Of a DNA stretch of 64,000 nt, positions 654 to 9,993 are shown piece by piece. Numbering within the stretch: position 1 is the stretch's first letter; each line of letters opens with the position of its first letter. The translations under genes were made by a program, and so were the position numbers. The notes below the pieces were generated by a model. The model had not been told where the DNA came from. It did not search any database and saw only the letters and a list, made by a program, of their open reading frames with translations. Source of the stretch: Terriglobus albidus (lineage in GTDB: Bacteria > Acidobacteriota > Terriglobia > Terriglobales > Acidobacteriaceae); NCBI RefSeq assembly GCF_025685425.1, contig NZ_JAGTAS010000058.1, forward strand, positions 62,001-126,000. Reading direction: 5' to 3'.

Positions 654-2102
654 CTACGTGGCTAGAGGAATGGTGAAGGTAAAGACGGATCCCTCACCTG
701 GACGGCTGACGACATCGATAGAACCTCCATGCGCCTCTACGATGGACCGGCTGATCGAAAGCCCCATACCCGTACCGGAGATCCGCTGGTTATGAATCGG
801 AGCACGATAGAAGCGGTCGAAGATCAGACTCTGTTCATGCGGATCAATGCCGATCCCTTTATCAGCCACGCTGACTGCCAGCTTGTTTCCTTGCACCTCG
901 GCCGTCAGAACGATAGGGCTGCCTTCTGCGGAGTATTTCGCTGCGTTTTCGAGGAGATTGCCCAGAACCTTCTTTAGAAATTCGAAGTCAGCGCGTACAG
1001 GTTCTTTTTGCTGGATCCGTACGTCGATGGGATTTCTTTCCTCCACCCAGCTAACGTCCTTGATAGCGCCGGAGATGACCTCGTCGATATCCACCGGCTC
1101 AAAGGTCATATGGACCTGGCGCGCGTCCAGCTGTGCCATCTCCACCGCCTGAGAGACGAGGCGATTGATGCGGTCGCTCTCCTGATCGATGATGGTTAAC
1201 AGTTCACGTCTGTCTTCGTCTCTCTGGATCTCATCGGAGAGCAGGGCGCTTGCCGCTCCTTTGATCGAGGTAAGTGGTGTACGCAACTCATGGGTGATGG
1301 AATCAATCATCAGACTGCGAAGGCGCTCGCTCTCTTTGGTAGCTTCACTGTGAGCCACGTTCTCAAGCGCCTTGGCACGATCGAGCGAAACGGAGATGAT
1401 GGTGCCGATCGCTTCAAGAGCGCCATCGGAGAGAACGGCTCCCCGCAGCATGAGTATGCCTCGAGGCTTCACGCCAACCTTCAACACAACCCTGAGTTCA
1501 TCTCCGGTTCGGTTTATTCCATTGCCATCCCGAGCCTCCTGGCGAAGATAGAGCCGCTCGTGTTCAGAGAGCAGTTCCGTACCTGCCTGAAATATAAGGT
1601 CCTCATCCAGCAGGTACAGGACAGCGGAACGTGCCTTTGTCGTCGCCACCACGGCACGCGGGATGCCATCGATGAGGGCAGCAACATTATCGGTCGCCAG
1701 CATCTCGCGGCTGAGGGCAAAGAGAGTTTCGAGCTCTCTCTGGCGGCAGCGCGCGTCTTCCGCCTCATCCCGGGCTTTCTGAGAGAGCCGGCTGCCGATC
1801 AATGCCGTGCTCAGAAAGGAAAAAAGCGCAAGCCAGTTCTGCGGATCCGCAATGGTTAGCGTATTGACCGGTGGAAGGAAATAGAAGTTATAACCCAGCG
1901 TGGCCAACACCGAAATAACGATCGCCAGCCGCAGGCTCCAGAGGGAGGCAAGCACAAGGATGTATAACAACAGCGTGAGCGCGACCGTAGTCGGATTGAC
2001 GTGGAGCCAGCGCCGGTACACAAAGATGATTCCCGCCAATGCGACAATGGAGAACGTCCAACGCGTGATGGCGACGATCCTGCGCGAGTTCATGAGGAGC
2101 AT
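654..2102 (-). CDS. kdpD: KdpD membrane and histidine-kinase half (split sensor)
   Basis: This is a 482-residue sensor kinase matching the C-terminal half of KdpD. Hydrophobic segments between residues about 15 and 105 match the four-helix KdpD membrane domain. A GAF-like segment follows (about 125-250), then the phosphoacceptor His271 in HELRTPLTSIKG, the N-box NLLENAAKYS near 382, DKGIGI, FDRFYR and GTGMGLSI. The ATP-binding/USP half found at the N-terminus of E. coli KdpD is missing here and is encoded divergently from 2111. I chose the ATG at 2102 because AAGG stands 6 nt upstream; an in-frame GTG at 2132 would overlap the divergent gene and lacks a ribosome site. It probably phosphorylates the KdpE encoded at 3238. 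The two halves must associate as separate chains if they act as one sensor, which is inference. Confidence 0.88.
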   Translation of the reverse strand: MLLMNSRRIVAITRWTFSIVALAGIIFVYRRWLHVNPTTVALTLLLYILVLASLWSLRLAIVISVLATLGYNFYFLPPVNTLTIADPQNWLALFSFLSTALIGSRLSQKARDEAEDARCRQRELETLFALSREMLATDNVAALIDGIPRAVVATTKARSAVLYLLDEDLIFQAGTELLSEHERLYLRQEARDGNGINRTGDELRVVLKVGVKPRGILMLRGAVLSDGALEAIGTIISVSLDRAKALENVAHSEATKESERLRSLMIDSITHELRTPLTSIKGAASALLSDEIQRDEDRRELLTIIDQESDRINRLVSQAVEMAQLDARQVHMTFEPVDIDEVISGAIKDVSWVEERNPIDVRIQQKEPVRADFEFLKKVLGNLLENAAKYSAEGSPIVLTAEVQGNKLAVSVADKGIGIDPHEQSLIFDRFYRAPIHNQRISGTGMGLSISRSIVEAHGGSIDVVSRPGEGSVFTFTIPLAT

Positions 2103-2110
2103 TCTAAGCC

Positions 2111-3241
2111 TTGTCTGACTATCGCAAGTCACCCGAAGAGTGGCTGAAGACCAGCGACACCGAAAAAAAACGTGGGCGCTTCAAGGTCTTTCTTGGCTAC
2201 GCTCCCGGAGTCGGTAAGACCTACGCCATGCTGAGCGAAGGAGTACGGCGGCGCAGCCGTGGAGAAGACGTCGTCATCGGGGTTGTGGAGACCCACGGGC
2301 GTGCCGCTACCCTGGAGATGGCCGGCAAGCTGGAGCAGATTCCCCGCAAAGAGATCGAATACAAGGGCACCCTGTTCACCGAGATGGACGTCGATGCCAT
2401 CCTGGCGCGTATGCCGCAGGTAGCGCTGGTGGACGAACTGGCCCATACCAATATCGAAGGCAGCCGTACCAAAAAGCGCTATGAAGACGTTCTGCTGCTT
2501 CTGGAAAACAAGATTGATGTGCTATCGACCATCAATATCCAGCATGTTGAGAGCCTCAGCATGCGGGTGCAGGCGCTGACCGGAATCAAAGTGCACGAGC
2601 AGGTTCCGGACTGGGTACTGGATCAGGCGGATGAGATCGTCATCAGTGATCTGACGCCCGAGGCCCTGATCACGCGCATGCGCCGCGGGGATATCTATCC
2701 TTCAGAGCGGGTCGAGCGAGCGCTCTCGAATTTCTTCCGTCAGGGGAATCTGATTGCCCTGCGCGAGATGGCATTGCAGCGGGTAACCCGCGCGGTAGAC
2801 CGTACGCTTGACGATTATGTCAAACGCAAGCGTTTAGGCCCGCAATGGACCGTAGCGGAGAGGATTGCAGTTTGTATCAGCGCAAATCCCGAGGCTCGCG
2901 ATCTGATCGGCCGTGGCGCCCGGCTTGCCGAAGCGTTGGATGGAGAGCTTTACGTCCTGCACGTCGACAGCGAGCGAGACAAAGAGCCTGAGCGCAAAAA
3001 GACCCTGGAATCTCATATCCAGTTCGCCACGAATCTAGGAGCGACGGTGGTTCATCTCACCGGCAGCAGTGTTGCCTCTGCCACGGCCGCCTTTGTCAAG
3101 GAACAACGCATCACGCAGGCTCTGTTCGGACGCTCAGCCCTGCACGGCTTGAAAAAGTATCTGTACTATCTGGCGATTCAGAAGTTCATGTCGGAAGCGC
3201 CGCATGTGGACCTGCATATCATCACCCAGGAGTCTCGATGA
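2111..3241 (+). CDS. kdpD: KdpD N-terminal ATP-binding and USP half (split sensor)
   Basis: This 376-residue protein corresponds to the cytoplasmic N-terminal part of KdpD. The KdpD signature domain carries a Walker A loop GYAPGVGKT (29-37) and a Walker B-like VALVDELAHTN (104-114). A universal-stress-protein-like domain fills about 244-376. The frame stops where the membrane helices would begin in a normal KdpD of about 890 residues. The start is TTG at 2111, with GAGGAG at 2094-2099. That ribosome site is the complement of the CTCCTC codons of the divergent kinase half. The stop overlaps the kdpE start as ATGA (3238-3241), indicating translational coupling. In E. coli this half binds ATP and modulates the kinase/phosphatase balance; here it would have to do so in trans. 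Confidence 0.88.
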   Translation: MSDYRKSPEEWLKTSDTEKKRGRFKVFLGYAPGVGKTYAMLSEGVRRRSRGEDVVIGVVETHGRAATLEMAGKLEQIPRKEIEYKGTLFTEMDVDAILARMPQVALVDELAHTNIEGSRTKKRYEDVLLLLENKIDVLSTINIQHVESLSMRVQALTGIKVHEQVPDWVLDQADEIVISDLTPEALITRMRRGDIYPSERVERALSNFFRQGNLIALREMALQRVTRAVDRTLDDYVKRKRLGPQWTVAERIAVCISANPEARDLIGRGARLAEALDGELYVLHVDSERDKEPERKKTLESHIQFATNLGATVVHLTGSSVASATAAFVKEQRITQALFGRSALHGLKKYLYYLAIQKFMSEAPHVDLHIITQESR

Positions 3242-3936
3242 GCGCCAACATTCTGATCGTGGATGACGATCCCCAGATCCTGCGCATGCTGCGTACCTCT
3301 CTCCAGGCCAGCGGATACACCGTTAATACAGCTCTAAGCGGAGGTTCCGCGCTATCAACCATCGCGCAGACAGTACCCGACCTCCTGATTACGGATATCG
3401 CCATGCCGGGCATGGATGGCATTGAACTGACAAAGAGGGTTCGCGAGACCCATGCGTTACCAATCATTGTGTTGAGCGTGCGTGACAACGATGAGTCCAA
3501 GGTGCGTGCCCTGGACGAGGGAGCGGACGATTACATCACAAAACCCTTCCGTACCCCGGAACTGCTGGCTCGCGTTCGGGCACACCTGCGCCGCAGCCAG
3601 CGGGTGGAAGACGCGCCACACCCCGTGCTGCATGTCGGCCACTTTGAGATCGACCAGGACAGCCATACTGTTACGCTGCGCGGTGAACACATTCATCTCT
3701 CACCGAAAGAGTTTGACCTGTTGCTGTTGCTCGCGAAATCCCCACAAAAGGTACTTACTCACAAGAACCTGTTGCGAGCGATTTGGGGCGTCGCAGGAGC
3801 CAATCAGCCGGAGTACCTGCGCGTATTGGTGGCCCAGCTTCGGAAGAAGATCGAGACGGAAGACTCCAAGTACATCCAGAGCGAGCCCTGGGTCGGCTAC
3901 CGTTTCAATCCGGAAGGCCGGGATGAGCTCTTATGA
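3238..3936 (+). CDS. kdpE: KdpE response regulator
   Basis: An OmpR/PhoB-type response regulator of 232 residues. The receiver domain shows the acidic pair D10/D11, phosphoacceptor D53 in ITDIAMPGMDG and K102 in DYITKPF. The C-terminal winged helix (about 130-227) contains LSPKEFDLLLLLAKSP and ends GYRFNP, both typical of KdpE. The gene overlaps the KdpD N-terminal half by four bases (ATGA). By analogy with E. coli it activates kdpFABC when potassium is scarce. Its cognate kinase is presumably the divergent 654-2102 product, so the regulator and its kinase sit on opposite strands and need separate promoters. Confidence 0.93.
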   Translation: MSANILIVDDDPQILRMLRTSLQASGYTVNTALSGGSALSTIAQTVPDLLITDIAMPGMDGIELTKRVRETHALPIIVLSVRDNDESKVRALDEGADDYITKPFRTPELLARVRAHLRRSQRVEDAPHPVLHVGHFEIDQDSHTVTLRGEHIHLSPKEFDLLLLLAKSPQKVLTHKNLLRAIWGVAGANQPEYLRVLVAQLRKKIETEDSKYIQSEPWVGYRFNPEGRDELL

Positions 3937-4000
3937 CTTTTTAACGCTTTTCCTATGAATTTCATACGGACCCTGACCGTTGAATCTATTCAGGGTTCAC

Positions 4001-5416
4001 ATGAAGATTCTTGTCAGTACCGTAACGCTCCTCCTCCTCGTAGCAGCCTTTCCGCTGACGGCCCAATCAACACAGGAACCTTCAGCCGCACGACGGGCTG
4101 AGATCGCCGAGCTGCGGGCAGAGCTTGCCCGCCTCGCTGCCCGGCTGGATGCCCTGGAAAAGACAGAAGCCACTTCGGCAGCAGAACCTACGGCATCCGC
4201 CAACGGAGCTCCGGCCCCGGTTTCGTCGTTGCCCTCCTCTTCGAGTTCGACTACGGCTTCGACAACGGCCCCAGCATCCGCAGCGGCTCCTCCTACCGTG
4301 GACGACTTCCTGCACGGCACAACGCTCGGCTTTGGCCTTGACGGCTACTACGGCTACAACTTCAACCAGCCCATCGGACGCGCCAACCTGCTGCGTGTCT
4401 ACGATGTCACCAGCAATAGCTTCAGCATCAACCAGGCGTCTCTGGTCGCAGAGCGGATTCCCACCACCGACAGCCGCTTCGGGGGACGCCTGGACCTCCA
4501 GTTCGGCCAGGCAACAGAGACGCTGCAGGGTTCGTATGCGAACGAGCAGCGGGCGCAGGTATGGCGCAACTTGTTCCAGGCGTACGGCAGCTATCTTGCC
4601 CCGGTCGGAAGCGGACTCCAGATCGACTTCGGTAAGTTCGCCAGCGCCCTGGGGGTAGAGGGGAACTACACCAAGGATCAGATCGCCTACTCCCGCTCAT
4701 TCACCTTCAACTATCTGCCCTATTACCACATGGGCGTCCGCGCAAATTACAACATCACTCCGAAGATCAACGTCACGTATTGGCTGGTGAACGGCGCGCA
4801 ACAGACGGAAGACTTCAACGGCTTCAAGTCACAGGCATTCATTCTGAACTTCAAGCCTTCTTCTACTGTGTCCTGGAACGTGAACTACTACTTCGGTCAG
4901 GAGCAGCGGGACGTCCTGCCGACAGATAATCCGGGAGCGCCGACGTCCCCTACGCAGCCGGGCCTTCCCACCACCAACATCACTCCGGCGCCGAATGGAC
5001 GGAATCACATCTTCGACACCTACGCGACGTGGAATGTAACACCGAAGCTCACGCTGGTAGGCGAGGCGGATTATGTAATCAGCCGGGTGCAGCAGCAGTC
5101 GAACCCCGCGCATACAGCCATCGGGGCAGTTTACTTCCGCTATGCGCTTCCGAAAGACTGGAGTATCGGCAGCCGCTTTGAGTACTTCGACGACCGGGGA
5201 GCCCTGTTCAGTGGAGAGACACAGGCGCTGAAGGAGTTCACCTTCGTCGCCGACCGCAAACTGGCTCCAGGCATGCTTGCCAGGGCTGAGTACCGCAGAG
5301 ATTTTTCCAACCAAAACTTCTTCACCACAGACAGAGCCGGCGTACTCGTCAAGCAGCAACCGACAGCGACGCTCGGCCTCATCTTCTGGTGGGGCAACAA
5401 ACAGGGCCAGTGGTAA
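4001..5416 (+). CDS. Outer-membrane beta-barrel porin in the kdp operon (BBP2/OmpL-like)
   Basis: A 471-residue exported protein. It has a signal peptide (MKILVSTVTLLLLVAAFPLTAQ), a short heptad-like stretch (AEIAELRAELARLAARLDAL, about residues 33-52) of the kind that trimerises or binds peptidoglycan, a low-complexity Ser/Thr/Ala/Pro linker (about 55-95), and then a long alternating beta-strand region to the C-terminus. The barrel begins with GYYGYNFNQP and has the style of the putative beta-barrel porin-2 family (PF07642). I use ATG 4001 rather than TTG 3980 because the signal peptide begins there. It lies 64 bp after kdpE and 20 bp before the next small gene, so it is probably co-transcribed with kdpFABC and may let K+ cross the outer membrane. 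That role is inferred from position only. Confidence 0.75.
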   Translation: MKILVSTVTLLLLVAAFPLTAQSTQEPSAARRAEIAELRAELARLAARLDALEKTEATSAAEPTASANGAPAPVSSLPSSSSSTTASTTAPASAAAPPTVDDFLHGTTLGFGLDGYYGYNFNQPIGRANLLRVYDVTSNSFSINQASLVAERIPTTDSRFGGRLDLQFGQATETLQGSYANEQRAQVWRNLFQAYGSYLAPVGSGLQIDFGKFASALGVEGNYTKDQIAYSRSFTFNYLPYYHMGVRANYNITPKINVTYWLVNGAQQTEDFNGFKSQAFILNFKPSSTVSWNVNYYFGQEQRDVLPTDNPGAPTSPTQPGLPTTNITPAPNGRNHIFDTYATWNVTPKLTLVGEADYVISRVQQQSNPAHTAIGAVYFRYALPKDWSIGSRFEYFDDRGALFSGETQALKEFTFVADRKLAPGMLARAEYRRDFSNQNFFTTDRAGVLVKQQPTATLGLIFWWGNKQGQW

Positions 5417-5436: not shown

Positions 5437-5535
5437 GTGCCCGATGTCTTCGCAGGCATTACGCTCATCCTTCTTTTTCCGCTCAGCCTTCTGTATGTCC
5501 ATGGCTGCGCGCGGCTGAAAGGAAAGAACCAATGA
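5437..5535 (+). CDS. 32-residue single-span membrane peptide upstream of kdpF
   Basis: A GTG start at 5437 preceded by AGGAGA at 5425-5430 opens a 32-codon frame that ends in ATGA, overlapping the kdpF start at 5532. The peptide has one hydrophobic helix (about residues 5-22, including GITLILLFPLSLLYVHG) followed by a short basic tail (ARLKGKNQ). The strong ribosome site and the four-base overlap with kdpF argue that it is a real gene that automated calling would miss because of length. I have a recollection of similar tiny membrane peptides beside kdpF in other bacteria, but no named family. It could be an accessory subunit of the KdpFABC complex. Confidence 0.65.
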   Translation: MPDVFAGITLILLFPLSLLYVHGCARLKGKNQ

Positions 5536-5618
5536 TTCTCAACTGCGTTCTTCTCGCCATTGTCATTTCCCTGATGGCGTATCTCGTCTACGCATTGCTT
5601 CGCCCGGAGAAGTTCTAA
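5532..5618 (+). CDS. kdpF: KdpF small subunit of the potassium ATPase
   Basis: A 28-residue single-span peptide ending in LLRPEKF, the usual KdpF C-terminus (E. coli KdpF has 29 residues). KdpF stabilises the KdpFABC complex at the KdpA interface. It overlaps the preceding 32-codon frame by four bases, and its stop directly abuts the kdpA start codon at 5619. GGAGA in its last codons doubles as the kdpA ribosome site. Confidence 0.9.
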   Translation: MILNCVLLAIVISLMAYLVYALLRPEKF

Positions 5619-7382
5619 ATGTCTCTCAATGGCTGGCTTCAGATTGTCGTCTTCTTTGCCGCAGTCTTGTTATTCACAAAACCTCTCGGCGTCTACATGG
5701 CGCGCGTCTTCCAGAAACAACGTACACGGCTCGACATTATCTTCGGCCCATGTGAGCGTTTACTTTACCGTCTGACCGGAGTTAATCCTGACGAGGAGAT
5801 GAGCTGGGGCGTTTACGCCACGGCCATGCTGGTCTTCAGCGCCGCAACCCTGGTGCTGACTTACCTGGTGGAGCGGCTACAGCATGTTCTGCCGTTGAAT
5901 CCGCAGCATCTTCCAGGAGTAGCGTCGGACCTCGCACTGAACACCGCGATCTCGTTCACTACGAATACAAACTGGCAGTCGTATGTTCCCGAGTCCACGA
6001 TGAGCTATCTCACCCAGATGTTGGGTCTGGCCACGCATAACTTCTGGTCCGCAGCAGTCGGCCTTGCACTCGCAATCGCCTTCATTCGCGGCATCGCACG
6101 GCGCGAGATGAAGACGCTGGGTAACTTCTGGGTTGATCTGACACGGGGAACCTTGTGGGTGCTGCTTCCGCTATCCGCGCTCTTCGCCATGGTGCTTGTC
6201 TCTCAGGGTGTGGTCCAGAATCTAAAGCCCTATGACACGGTCAAACTGGTCGAGCCGCAGGCGGTTACCGGTACAGACGGCAAGCAGACGACTGTCACGA
6301 CACAGACCATCGCTCAGGGCCCGGTTGCATCGCAGGAAGCGATCAAGATGCTGGGCACCAACGGTGGTGGATTCTTCAACGCGAACAGCGCGCATCCGTT
6401 TGAGAATCCGACACCTCTGTCCAATTTCCTGCAGATGCTGGCAATCTTCCTGATTCCCGCGGCGCTGACAGCGACCCTTGGCCAGATGGTGGGCTCTCCG
6501 AAACATGGTTGGGCTGTCTTTGCCGCCATGGCACTATTGTGTTTTGTCGCCGTACTTACCTGTTACTGGGCGGAAGCTCACGGCAACCCGCTGTTGCATG
6601 GAGTTGATCAGCACGTCTCCGCATTGCACTCCGGTGGCAACATGGAAGGCAAAGAAGTGCGCTTCGGCATCGCCAATAGCGCATTATTTGCCACCGTCAC
6701 GACAGACGCGAGTTGTGGCGCCGTGAACTCCATGCACGACAGCTTTACGCCGCTTGGCGGCATGGTGCCCATGGTGAATATCCTGCTCGGCGAAGTCGTC
6801 TTCGGCGGAGTCGGAGCGGGGATGTACGGCATGCTCGTCTTCGTGATTGTCGCTGTCTTCATCGCGGGCCTGATGGTAGGCCGAACTCCGGAGTATCTCG
6901 GAAAAAAGATCGAAGCTTACGATGTACAGCTTTCCATGCTGTATGTCCTGATCTTCCCCCTCCTGATTCTCGGGTTTGCGGCCGTCACGGTGCTGATGCC
7001 TCGTCTTGGCCTGAGCGGTCTTGCCAACCATGGCCCTCACGGTCTGTCAGAGATCCTCTACGCCTACACCTCGGCGACCGGCAACAATGGCTCAGCCTTC
7101 GCGGGCTTGAATGCCAACACGCACTGGTACAACTACACGCTGGGCATTGCGATGTTCTTCGGGCGTTTCATGATGATTATCCCGATGCTGGCGATTGCGG
7201 GCAATCTTGCCGGCAAAAAGATTGTCCCGGCGTCGTCCGGTACATTTCCGGTCACCACACCGCTGTTCACGATTCTGCTGACCGCAGTCATCGTGATCGT
7301 CGGCGCACTGACTTTCTTCCCTGCACTTTCACTGAGTCCGATTCTTGAGCACCTGCTGCTCGGCGCCGGACAGACTTTCTAA
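5619..7382 (+). CDS. kdpA: KdpA potassium channel subunit
   Basis: KdpA, 587 residues, is the channel-like subunit that binds and conducts K+ in the inner-membrane P-type ATPase KdpFABC. Conserved selectivity-filter and pore loops are visible: [43 protein letters not shown] and [14 protein letters not shown]. About ten hydrophobic segments are spread along the chain. Length is slightly above the E. coli protein (557), largely from the periplasmic loop around residues 205-240 ([15 protein letters not shown]). It sits between kdpF and kdpB with an 11 bp gap to kdpB, clearly within one operon. Confidence 0.97.
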
Positions 7383-7393
7383 GGAGACCGGAG

Positions 7394-9430
7394 ATGTCGC
7401 ACGCAAAACGCCGCTCCATGTTTGATCGCAAAATCGTCCGCCGCGCCTCGGTGGATGCACTGCTGAAGCTTTCACCAAAAGTCATGATGAAGAACCCCGT
7501 CATGTTCGTGGTGGAGATCGGCAGCGTACTTACCACAGTGCTGCTCATTCTGAATCTCACCACCAGGCGTGGACACTTCCAGTTCGACCTACAGATCACG
7601 CTCTGGCTCTGGTTCACGGTCCTGTTTGCAAACTTCGCTGAAGCCATGGCGGAAGGCCGCGGAAAAGCTCAGGCCGATGCTCTGCGCCAGGCGAAGTCAG
7701 AGACGACAGCCTTCCGCGTTGGCAAAAATGGCATCGAGCAGATTGCCAGCTCGCAACTGCGGTCCGGCGACGTCGTACAAGTCAGTGCCGGACAGATGAT
7801 TCCAGGCGATGGCGAAGTCATTGAAGGCATCGCTTCCGTCGATGAATCGGCCATCACCGGCGAGTCTGCTCCGGTAATCCGCGAAGCAGGCGGTGACCGC
7901 TCCGCTGTTACCGGCGGAACACGCGTGCTCAGCGACGTGATCACCATCCGCATCACCTCCAACCCCGGTGAGACCTTCCTCGATCGCATGATCGCTCTGG
8001 TGGAAGGCGCGGAACGGCAGAAGACGCCGAACGAGATCGCACTGAATATCCTGCTCGCGGGACTGACCATCATCTTCCTGCTGGCGGTGGTGACGCTGCA
8101 ACCCTTCGCCATCTACTCGGCCGCACCGCAGACAGTCTTCGTTCTGGTCTCGTTGCTGGTCTGTCTGATTCCGACAACGATCGGGGGCCTGCTGTCCGCT
8201 ATCGGCATCGCCGGCATGGACCGCCTGGTGCAGCACAATGTGCTGGCAACCTCTGGACGTGCCGTTGAAGCAGCCGGTGACGTCAACACGCTGCTGCTGG
8301 ACAAGACGGGAACCATCACCATCGGCAACCGTCAGGCATCGGAGTTCGTACCGGCGCCCGGAGTAAAGGCCGAAGTTCTTGCGGACGCTGCTCAGCTCTC
8401 ATCGCTGGCGGACGAAACTCCGGAAGGACGTTCCATTGTTGTTCTCGCGAAGGAGAAGTACAACCTTCGCGGACGCGAACTGGGTCAGATGCATGCGGAG
8501 TTCGTTCCCTTCTCCGCAACCACACGCATGAGCGGCATCGAGGTAGAAGGTAGAAGCATCCGCAAGGGAGCGGTTGACGCCATCGCCCGCTACCTGCAGG
8601 AGCACAGCTCACAGATGCCGGCCGAGGTGCGCGAAGCCGTGGAAACGATCGCCCGCAGTGGCGGCACTCCGCTGGTCGTTGCGGAGAATGGCAAGGCTCT
8701 CGGCGTCATTCACCTGAAGGACGTGGTCAAAGGTGGCATGCGCGAGCGCTTCGAGCAGCTCCGCGCCATGGGCATTCGCACCGTCATGATCACCGGCGAC
8801 AATCCGTTGACCGCCGCGGCCATTGCGCGGGAAGCGGGCGTCGATGATTTCCTTGCTGAGGCAAAGCCGAAGGACAAGATGGACCTGATCAAACGCGAGC
8901 AGGCGGAGGGCAAGCTGGTGGCCATGACCGGCGACGGCACCAACGATGCTCCCGCACTCGCGCAGGCCGATGTGGGTGTCGCCATGAACAGCGGCACGCA
9001 GGCGGCGAAAGAGGCAGGCAACATGGTCGACCTCGACAGTAATCCGACGAAGCTGATCGAGATCGTCGCCATCGGCAAACAACTGCTGATGACCCGAGGC
9101 GCTCTGACCACCTTCTCCATCGCTAACGATGTGGCCAAGTACTTCGCCATCATCCCAGCAATGTTCGCTGGGTTCTTCCCGGTGCTGAACGCGTTGAACA
9201 TCATGCATCTGCATAATGCAGAATCGGCCATCCTTTCGGCCATCATCTTCAACGCGGTCATTATCATCGCCCTAATCCCCCTGGCACTACGCGGAGTCAG
9301 CTACCGGCCCATGTCCGCCGCCGCCCTGCTGCAGCGCAACCTGCTGGTGTATGGACTGGGCGGCATCATCGTACCGTTTGCCGGTATCAAGCTGATCGAT
9401 ATCGTCATCGTCGCCATGCATCTTGCATAG
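7394..9430 (+). CDS. kdpB: KdpB ATPase subunit
   Basis: KdpB, 678 residues, is the ATP-hydrolysing P-type subunit of KdpFABC. All signatures are present: TGES at 155-158 (the serine that is inhibited by phosphorylation in E. coli), the phosphorylated Asp303 in [13 protein letters not shown], the hinge motif [12 protein letters not shown] and membrane segments at both ends. AAGGAGA just after the kdpA stop supplies the ribosome site. Nothing is missing, so the pump should be catalytically complete. Confidence 0.97.
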
Positions 9431-9441
9431 AGGAACTCACC

Positions 9442-9993
9442 ATGAAGAAACATCTCATTACCGCAACCCTCTATACCCTGGTTACCGCCGTGCTGCTGGG
9501 GATTGTTTATCCGCTGGCGATCACCGCGATCTCACAGCTTGTCTTTCGGGATAAGGCGAATGGGCAGCTTGTGACCCGGAAGGACGAGCTGATCGGTTCA
9601 AAACTGATTGGCCAGCCCTTCACCGGGCCCACTTACTTTCACAGCCGGCCTTCAGCGGCCGGCACAGGGTATGACGCATCGGCATCCAGCGGATCAAATC
9701 TCGCTCCCACGAACAAGGCGTTCGTCGATCGCGTGGCGGCCAGCGTTGCCGCGGAGAAGGTGAACAACGTGCCGGTGGATCTGGTCACGGCGTCAGGATC
9801 GGGTCTTGATCCTGACATCTCGCCCGCCGCCGCTCTGGCCCAGGTATCGCGGGTTGCGGCGGAACGTCATCTGGACGAAGCCAAATTGAAAAGGTTCGTG
9901 GAAGCCCACATTATCGATCGTCAGTTTGGTCTGCTGGGAGAACCTCGCGTGAATGTGCTGGCGTTGAATCTGGCGCTGGATGCTGGGATCTAG
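9442..9993 (+). CDS. kdpC: KdpC subunit
   Basis: KdpC, 183 residues, completes the KdpFABC pump. One N-terminal membrane span (about 7-31) is followed by a periplasmic domain with the family blocks GQPFTGPTYFHSRPSAAG, SGSGLDPDISPAAA and the C-terminal NVLALNLALD. AGAGGAACTC precedes the ATG, 11 bp after kdpB. It is the last gene of the operon; a strong hairpin follows at 10108. Confidence 0.96.
   Translation: MKKHLITATLYTLVTAVLLGIVYPLAITAISQLVFRDKANGQLVTRKDELIGSKLIGQPFTGPTYFHSRPSAAGTGYDASASSGSNLAPTNKAFVDRVAASVAAEKVNNVPVDLVTASGSGLDPDISPAAALAQVSRVAAERHLDEAKLKRFVEAHIIDRQFGLLGEPRVNVLALNLALDAGI

Follow-up and report, generated by a model that had tools for sequence, protein, structure and literature searches.

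Head-to-head genes encode the two chains of a split KdpD in Terriglobus albidus, the kinase mRNA being probably leaderless

In the 64,000-nt stretch of Terriglobus albidus DNA analysed here (the window; assembly GCF_025685425.1, contig NZ_JAGTAS010000058.1, positions 62,001–126,000, forward strand), KdpD consists of two chains made from two head-to-head genes, and the split is real. As an explanation of the whole we favour, with modest confidence, a two-chain KdpD in which a serine-kinase brake stands beside a separate K+ sensor whose kinase mRNA is leaderless.

RESULTS

KdpD is divided between two genes on opposite strands

Pfam recognised DUF4118, HisKA and HATPase in the minus-strand protein, the phospho-acceptor of which is His 268, while the plus-strand protein scored 302 bits with PF02702 and has a Walker A motif (G-x5-GKT) at 29 and the Walker B Asp-Glu at about 108–109 (Table 1). 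On the 895-position NCBIfam KdpD model, residues 4–374 of the plus chain match positions 6–375 and residues 20–478 of the minus chain match 410–883, each half scoring below the full-length cut-off; the two thus tile the model, and the initial annotation was right in placing the KdpD halves back to back on opposite strands. The top NCBIfam score of the minus kinase was to PnpS (193 bits), which covered the kinase core alone, and no GAF domain was recognised in it by Pfam, a point that counts against the explanation we favour.

Table 1. Features of the divergent kdpD locus and of the kdp gene row in the window
Feature	Position	Strand	Details and basis
GATGAT inside the kinase gene	2025..2030	+	Place of the near-clade TACAAT; doubtful promoter in the window
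Membrane/histidine-kinase half of KdpD	654..2093	-	479 aa; start ATG 2093 by homology; Pfam, KdpD model
GAGGAG, probable ribosome site of the plus gene	2094..2099	+	11 nt before TTG 2111
CATTCT, possible weak divergent -10	2100..2105	+	5 nt before TTG 2111; shares bases of the kinase box; inferred from position
TAGAAT, -10-like box	2101..2106	-	7 nt before kinase ATG 2093; conserved TANNNT
KdpD/Usp half	2111..3241	+	376 aa; start TTG 2111; Pfam KdpD and Usp, KdpD model
kdpE response regulator	3238..3936	+	Pfam receiver and Trans_reg_C; overlaps the KdpD/Usp gene by 4 nt
BBP2 outer-membrane porin	3980..5416	+	Pfam; between kdpE and kdpF
kdpF-like 28-aa peptide	5532..5618	+	Translation and pattern
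kdpA	5619..7382	+	PF03814 match
kdpB	7394..9430	+	Name from sequence and position; TGES at 155
Putative kdpC	9442..9993	+	Position and sequence

Querying the whole genome yielded a single PF02702 match, with no other KdpD domain, and a single KdpA (PF03814), whereas DUF4118 was found at six places, four of them above the cut-off, with the window kinase the best. The full-length kdpD elsewhere that could have undone the idea of a natural split sensor is thus absent, and that idea is upheld by the one KdpD domain and by the conservation of both halves. A sequencing error or a decaying pseudogene has a negligible probability as the cause of the split: its single point is one relative (L184) with a short plus frame (326 aa), and it is already contradicted by the relatives, for 58 other fetched loci share the layout and the Walker A, Walker B, phospho-acceptor His and ATP-binding motifs are kept in the window and 16 relatives. 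With these motifs in place neither half looks like a pseudogene, and the split sensor is apparently intact, with no sign of decay.

The pair heads a row of kdp genes. The product of kdpE gave NCBIfam KdpE as one among several regulator matches, below the cut-off. The 28-aa peptide, which we take to be kdpF, is directly preceded and overlapped by a 32-aa membrane-like frame at 5437–5535, and similar small frames before kdpF were seen by eye in about 22 of 39 loci with the kdpF pattern; porin-like frames are also present in the kdp rows of many relatives. Linkage to kdpE and kdpABC holds in the window and, among the 59 divergent-pair stretches (window included), kdpE was found in 53 and kdpA in 42, several of the stretches ending early.

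The divergent pair is common within the family Acidobacteriaceae

PF02702 is present in 162 of 200 genomes of the family, mostly, among the matches listed, in open frames of about 355–570 aa, with one of 872 aa. The latter, from genome G034, was rejected as a full-length KdpD, being in L062 merely open antisense to the kinase gene. Loci were fetched for 80 PF02702 places from the family and 40 from the phylum list, chosen by hand, and were classed by bit-score rules; seven of the latter bring the family loci to 87, with genome G128 counted twice. The search of related kdp loci for the same divergent arrangement, proposed with the initial annotation, was positive inside the family: a divergent KdpD/kinase pair was found in 58 of the 87 family loci, among the named records that of Granulicella aggregans (L213), and in 0 of 33 loci from other families of the phylum. 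A further 25 family loci have a same-strand kinase, with kdpA missing from the stretch, four have a KdpD half without a recognised neighbouring kinase, and none is full-length by the locus rule; the 33 loci of other families divide into nine full-length, four with a same-strand kinase and 20 with none recognised, some of these 20 having longer frames (e.g. L179, 942 aa).

A tree built from 48 kinases placed the full-length ones in one group and the same-strand ones in another, and the divergent kinases required two changes (one in 40% of bootstrap trees); with 14 of 45 inner branches weak, the tree is compatible with a single origin of the divergent layout, and says no more. That the same-strand pairs of the family belong to the same system was considered and rejected, since 0 of 25 have kdpA in the stretch; the kinase of L043, the sole same-strand one examined, has HAMP and PAS and no DUF4118 match, which also speaks against it.

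Several loci depart from the common layout. L043 (8191–11105) and 24 other family loci carry a second KdpD/Usp type with a same-strand kinase, away from kdpABC, and KdpA was located elsewhere in 10 of 10 tested genomes with a same-strand pair. Tandem KdpD/Usp frames occur in L051, L148, L162 and L181, the second kind being weaker (about 176–180 bits to the window protein). The divergent pair of L184 (genome G417), with its 326-aa KdpD/Usp frame, has no adjoining kdpE, its kdpABC lying further on and on the opposite strand, and may be decaying. G148, of the same genus as the window, has neither PF02702 nor KdpA, so that sensor and pump seem lost together.

The kinase gene starts at ATG 2093 behind a conserved -10-like box

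Start codons had initially been assigned at 2102 and 2111. TTG 2111 was retained for the plus gene, while homology moved the minus start to ATG 2093: the relatives begin with M/V-N-S or its equivalent, and in L193, L195, L086 and L088 the homologous start is preceded, within a few codons, by a stop codon, and no codon between the two could serve as a start. ATG 2102 and GTG 2132 were ruled out by homology. An ATG does exist at 2102, with an equivalent in eight of 73 anchored loci (L188-L192, L183, L205, L213), and a -10-like box was never found with the ATG at that place in these eight.

A motif search gave 80 distinct upstream regions, and 73 of them were anchored on the kinase. A start codon stands 30–32 residues before the N-x-T-T anchor in 68 of these 73, with TANNNT 5–8 nt ahead of that homologous start in 67 of the 68. 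At this N5–8 distance TANNNT precedes 67 of the 70 start codons that occupy the homologous place. It does so for two of the 78 remaining start codons within range and, across 80 family loci, for 1,705 of 107,243 (1.6%) of all ATG/GTG/TTG; the loci being related, these counts are no independent draws. The middle letters vary (TAGAAT, TACAAT, TAAGAT, TAGTAT, TATACT and others). A TANNNT some 12 bp ahead of the start codon has been taken to mark leaderless genes, which are predicted at 9.7–19.4% in three Acidobacteria (PMC3160421), and the window kinase shows this arrangement (TAGAAT, N7, ATG 2093). Given the conserved box, the kinase mRNA is probably leaderless, with its 5′ end outside the KdpD/Usp gene.

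These results revise the view that both mRNAs necessarily begin within the opposite gene: such an overlap is not forced once the kinase starts at 2093 with TAGAAT 7 nt upstream. The GAGGAG proposed as ribosome site of the plus gene does precede TTG 2111, and from a kinase start at 2093 it lies outside the minus gene and is not the complement of its codons; the AAGG proposed for the minus gene exists (2112–2109, minus strand) and is dispensable.

Three junction types point to different starts of the KdpD/Usp gene

The junctions of 67 loci were sorted into three types, the plus start being picked by rule where several were possible. Within the window's clade (28 loci, the near clade), in which the window's own start codons are 18 bp apart, the spacing is 18 bp in 15 loci, 15–19 bp in 27 and 124 bp in one, and the plus start codon is TTG in 8, GTG in 12 and ATG in 8. 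All seven sister-clade loci have 18 bp, a TANNNTA heptamer, ATG for the plus gene and GTG for the kinase. The gap is mostly wider in the remaining 32 loci, with ATG as plus start in 27; by eye, L015, L020, L069 and L072 among them share TCGACA-N17-GACAAT-N7-ATG. A GGAG-like motif before the plus gene is present in 26 of 28 near-clade loci, 0 of seven in the sister clade and two of the 32 others. From these patterns both genes look leaderless in the sister clade and in loci of the L015/L020/L069/L072 type, and the plus gene looks leadered in the window's clade. In L017 and L223 the gap between both start codons is widened by short repeats like GTTTCAAGGTTTC.

Kinase codons 2–32 of 21 near-clade sequences showed extra synonymous conservation (0.129 versus 0.041 beyond; permutation p 0.001), highest in codons 17–24 (0.277, a bin read after the fact), and no such excess was seen in 39 far sequences (p 0.95). 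Its main cause is a TACAAT on the plus strand, which 16 of the 28 near-clade loci write with the codons ATT-GTA. As the A/T at box positions 2 and 6 follow from the coded Ile-Val/Ile/Leu, the ATT-GTA choice alone counts. Those 16 of 28 compare with 0 of 56 other Ile-Val pairs, and the far group is somewhat raised too, at 6 of 38 compared with 3 of 82. TACAAT is thus a candidate plus promoter in the near-clade relatives, and together with the GGAG-like motif it suggests that transcription of the plus gene begins within the kinase gene. A TTGACA upstream of TACAAT in near relatives was rejected by eye: it stands 23 bp off, and conserved Val-Asn codons account for its letters.

The initial proposal that antisense pairing controls the split sensor thereby survives solely in a one-sided, unproven form, with the plus mRNA starting inside the kinase gene, its leader running over the leaderless kinase start, and pairing tuning the ratio of the chains. 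The GGAG-like motif of the near clade, its weak plus start codons (TTG or GTG in 20 of 28) and the synonymous conservation confined to it would suit such coupling. We nevertheless hold it unlikely, because the window's own group has GATGAT in place of TACAAT, a sigma-70 scan of 1700–2400 found 0 matches (shuffles 0.3), and overlap by itself is no proof of regulation.

The two starts may instead share one bidirectional promoter, with overlapping -10 boxes and both mRNAs leaderless from starts about 18 bp apart, so that the chains would be co-made without any overlap. The start codons are 18 bp apart in just over half of the near-clade loci and throughout the sister clade, the latter with TANNNTA, and divergent starts described in print are most often 18 bp apart (PMC10268837, PMC12825309). 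Like those bacterial bidirectional promoters, the sister clade has the 18-bp spacing and overlapping -10 boxes, although here it is start codons that were measured, not mapped transcription starts, and the plus box of the window is weak. Reciprocal boxes in full form are limited to the seven sister-clade loci, whereas the window has, at 18 bp, CATTCT with N5 to TTG. A TTG with such a box is a poor leaderless start. Moreover, five near-clade loci are spaced at 15 bp, a poor fit to a shared divergent start, and the GGAG-like motif would have no use. For the window we therefore consider a bidirectional promoter rather doubtful; it suits the sister clade better.

The KdpD/Usp chain retains Walker A and Walker B and probably lacks the c-di-AMP input

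The KdpD domain is described as a serine kinase acting on KdpB, and a short Deinococcus KdpD as being stimulated by c-di-AMP (Silberberg et al. 2024, PMC11018627). The TGES target motif of this kinase is present in the KdpB of the window and in 38 of 38 KdpBs found (21 of 59 stretches gave none), and Walker A and Walker B are present in 59 of 59 divergent-pair loci. The residue right after GKT is Tyr in 40, Phe in 15 and His in four of the 59 loci and never Trp, so that the adenine-holding Trp39 of E. coli is replaced in all 59, which counts against our favoured explanation; a motif R[ML]xxG[DK][IV]Y, a candidate equivalent of R190 in the E. coli W39/R190 pair, occurs in 58 of 59.

A search for diadenylate cyclase (PF02457) gave no match in the T. 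albidus genome, 11 of 14 controls being positive; PF02457 was found in 90 of 200 family genomes and in 0 of the 8 Terriglobus genomes in that draw (19 in the genus). In S. aureus, c-di-AMP binding involves an SXS-X20-FTAXY motif, of which Tyr271 is required (PMC4686210). The window has SAN and ELYVLHV instead, and alignment through 7ji4 puts His 284 of the plus chain at the place of Tyr271. Tyr holds this place in 28 of 28 divergent-pair loci with a cyclase match in the genome (His in 0 of 28), while among loci without one it is His in 23 of 27 and Tyr in 4 of 27, 'without' meaning not among the PF02457 matches of the family draw, in which some genomes are incomplete; four divergent-pair loci outside the draw all have His. 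On the tree, Tyr/His takes one change and the cyclase two, which brings the link between them close to a single event and counts against the favoured explanation; a Fisher test of cyclase versus Tyr/His (p 9e-12) was set aside for the same reason. Because the genome gives no cyclase match and the plus chain carries His in place of the Tyr that binds c-di-AMP, the input described in print is unlikely to operate in the window, and it is probably absent in the window's clade.

Brake and kinase could also be two functions that merely share a locus, the brake being controlled by a Usp ligand, the kinase working with KdpE alone and the layout having no regulatory meaning, a reading to which we give appreciable weight but less than an even chance. 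PMC11018627 suggests that both activities evolved separately and proposes the Usp domain, not the kinase chain, as what controls the short chain, the latter proposal counting against the explanation favoured here, and 20 of the 33 other-family loci have a KdpD half with no recognised kinase beside it. What speaks against unlinked functions is that 58 of the 87 family loci keep the pair side by side and divergent, and that the box at the kinase start is conserved.

DISCUSSION

In the favoured explanation of two chains with separate tasks, the KdpD/Usp chain would most likely work as a free, atypical serine kinase; by phosphorylating KdpB at the TGES serine it would brake the pump at high K+. 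The membrane/histidine-kinase chain would most likely be a K+ sensor driving KdpE at low K+. The kinase gene would be read as a leaderless mRNA from its -10 box; for the plus gene, transcription would more likely set in farther upstream, within the kinase gene, and GAGGAG would serve as ribosome site, the alternative being weak divergent use of the kinase box. Since the c-di-AMP input is probably absent, the plus chain needs another signal, the simplest candidate for which may be the kinase chain acting in trans. Halves of E. coli KdpD reportedly complement each other in trans, which counts for this explanation. A scheme combining all these elements, with the serine-kinase half free of c-di-AMP control and signalled in trans by the histidine kinase, an antisense leader over the kinase start, and the brake/sensor ratio set at the 18-bp junction, is quite improbable.

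In this family the two kinase activities of KdpD are naturally separated, both in relatives that have the c-di-AMP cyclase and in relatives that lack it, so that the way in which potassium levels are signalled to a free KdpD serine kinase can be addressed directly. The junction, of which this one family holds three variants, also supplies a small natural collection of divergent and leaderless starts.

Full-length KdpD of the E. coli type is one chain, the model of which is covered jointly by the two window proteins. That KdpD can be split is already known, with separate chains published for Acidobacteriota and a divergent split for Deinococcus (PMC11018627, PMC5716572). Separate chains are commonest in Acidobacteriota and Chloroflexota, and the two-chain KdpD described there, a KdpD/Usp serine kinase and a TM/GAF/DHpCA histidine kinase, has the same domain split (PMC11018627); the accessible text of that paper does not describe gene orientation or promoters, and the window adds the divergent pair, the lack of a cyclase match and His at the c-di-AMP Tyr place. 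No divergent KdpD layout in Acidobacteriota was found in the accessible parts of the open-access literature. In kdpBAC-D-N of Deinococcus radiodurans (Dani et al. 2017, PMC5716572) KdpD is also split, with the kinase half on the opposite strand across a 38-bp intergenic region; there the kinase faces kdpB and the regulator travels with the kinase, whereas in the window it is the two KdpD halves that lie head to head, and kdpE comes after the KdpD/Usp gene. Collinear split KdpDs of other acidobacterial families (L158, L160) likewise have the KdpD half, kinase half and kdpE adjoining, but all on one strand and after kdpABC. Compared with these systems, the novelty seems to lie in the conserved head-to-head layout, the arrangement of its starts and a c-di-AMP input that has probably been lost.
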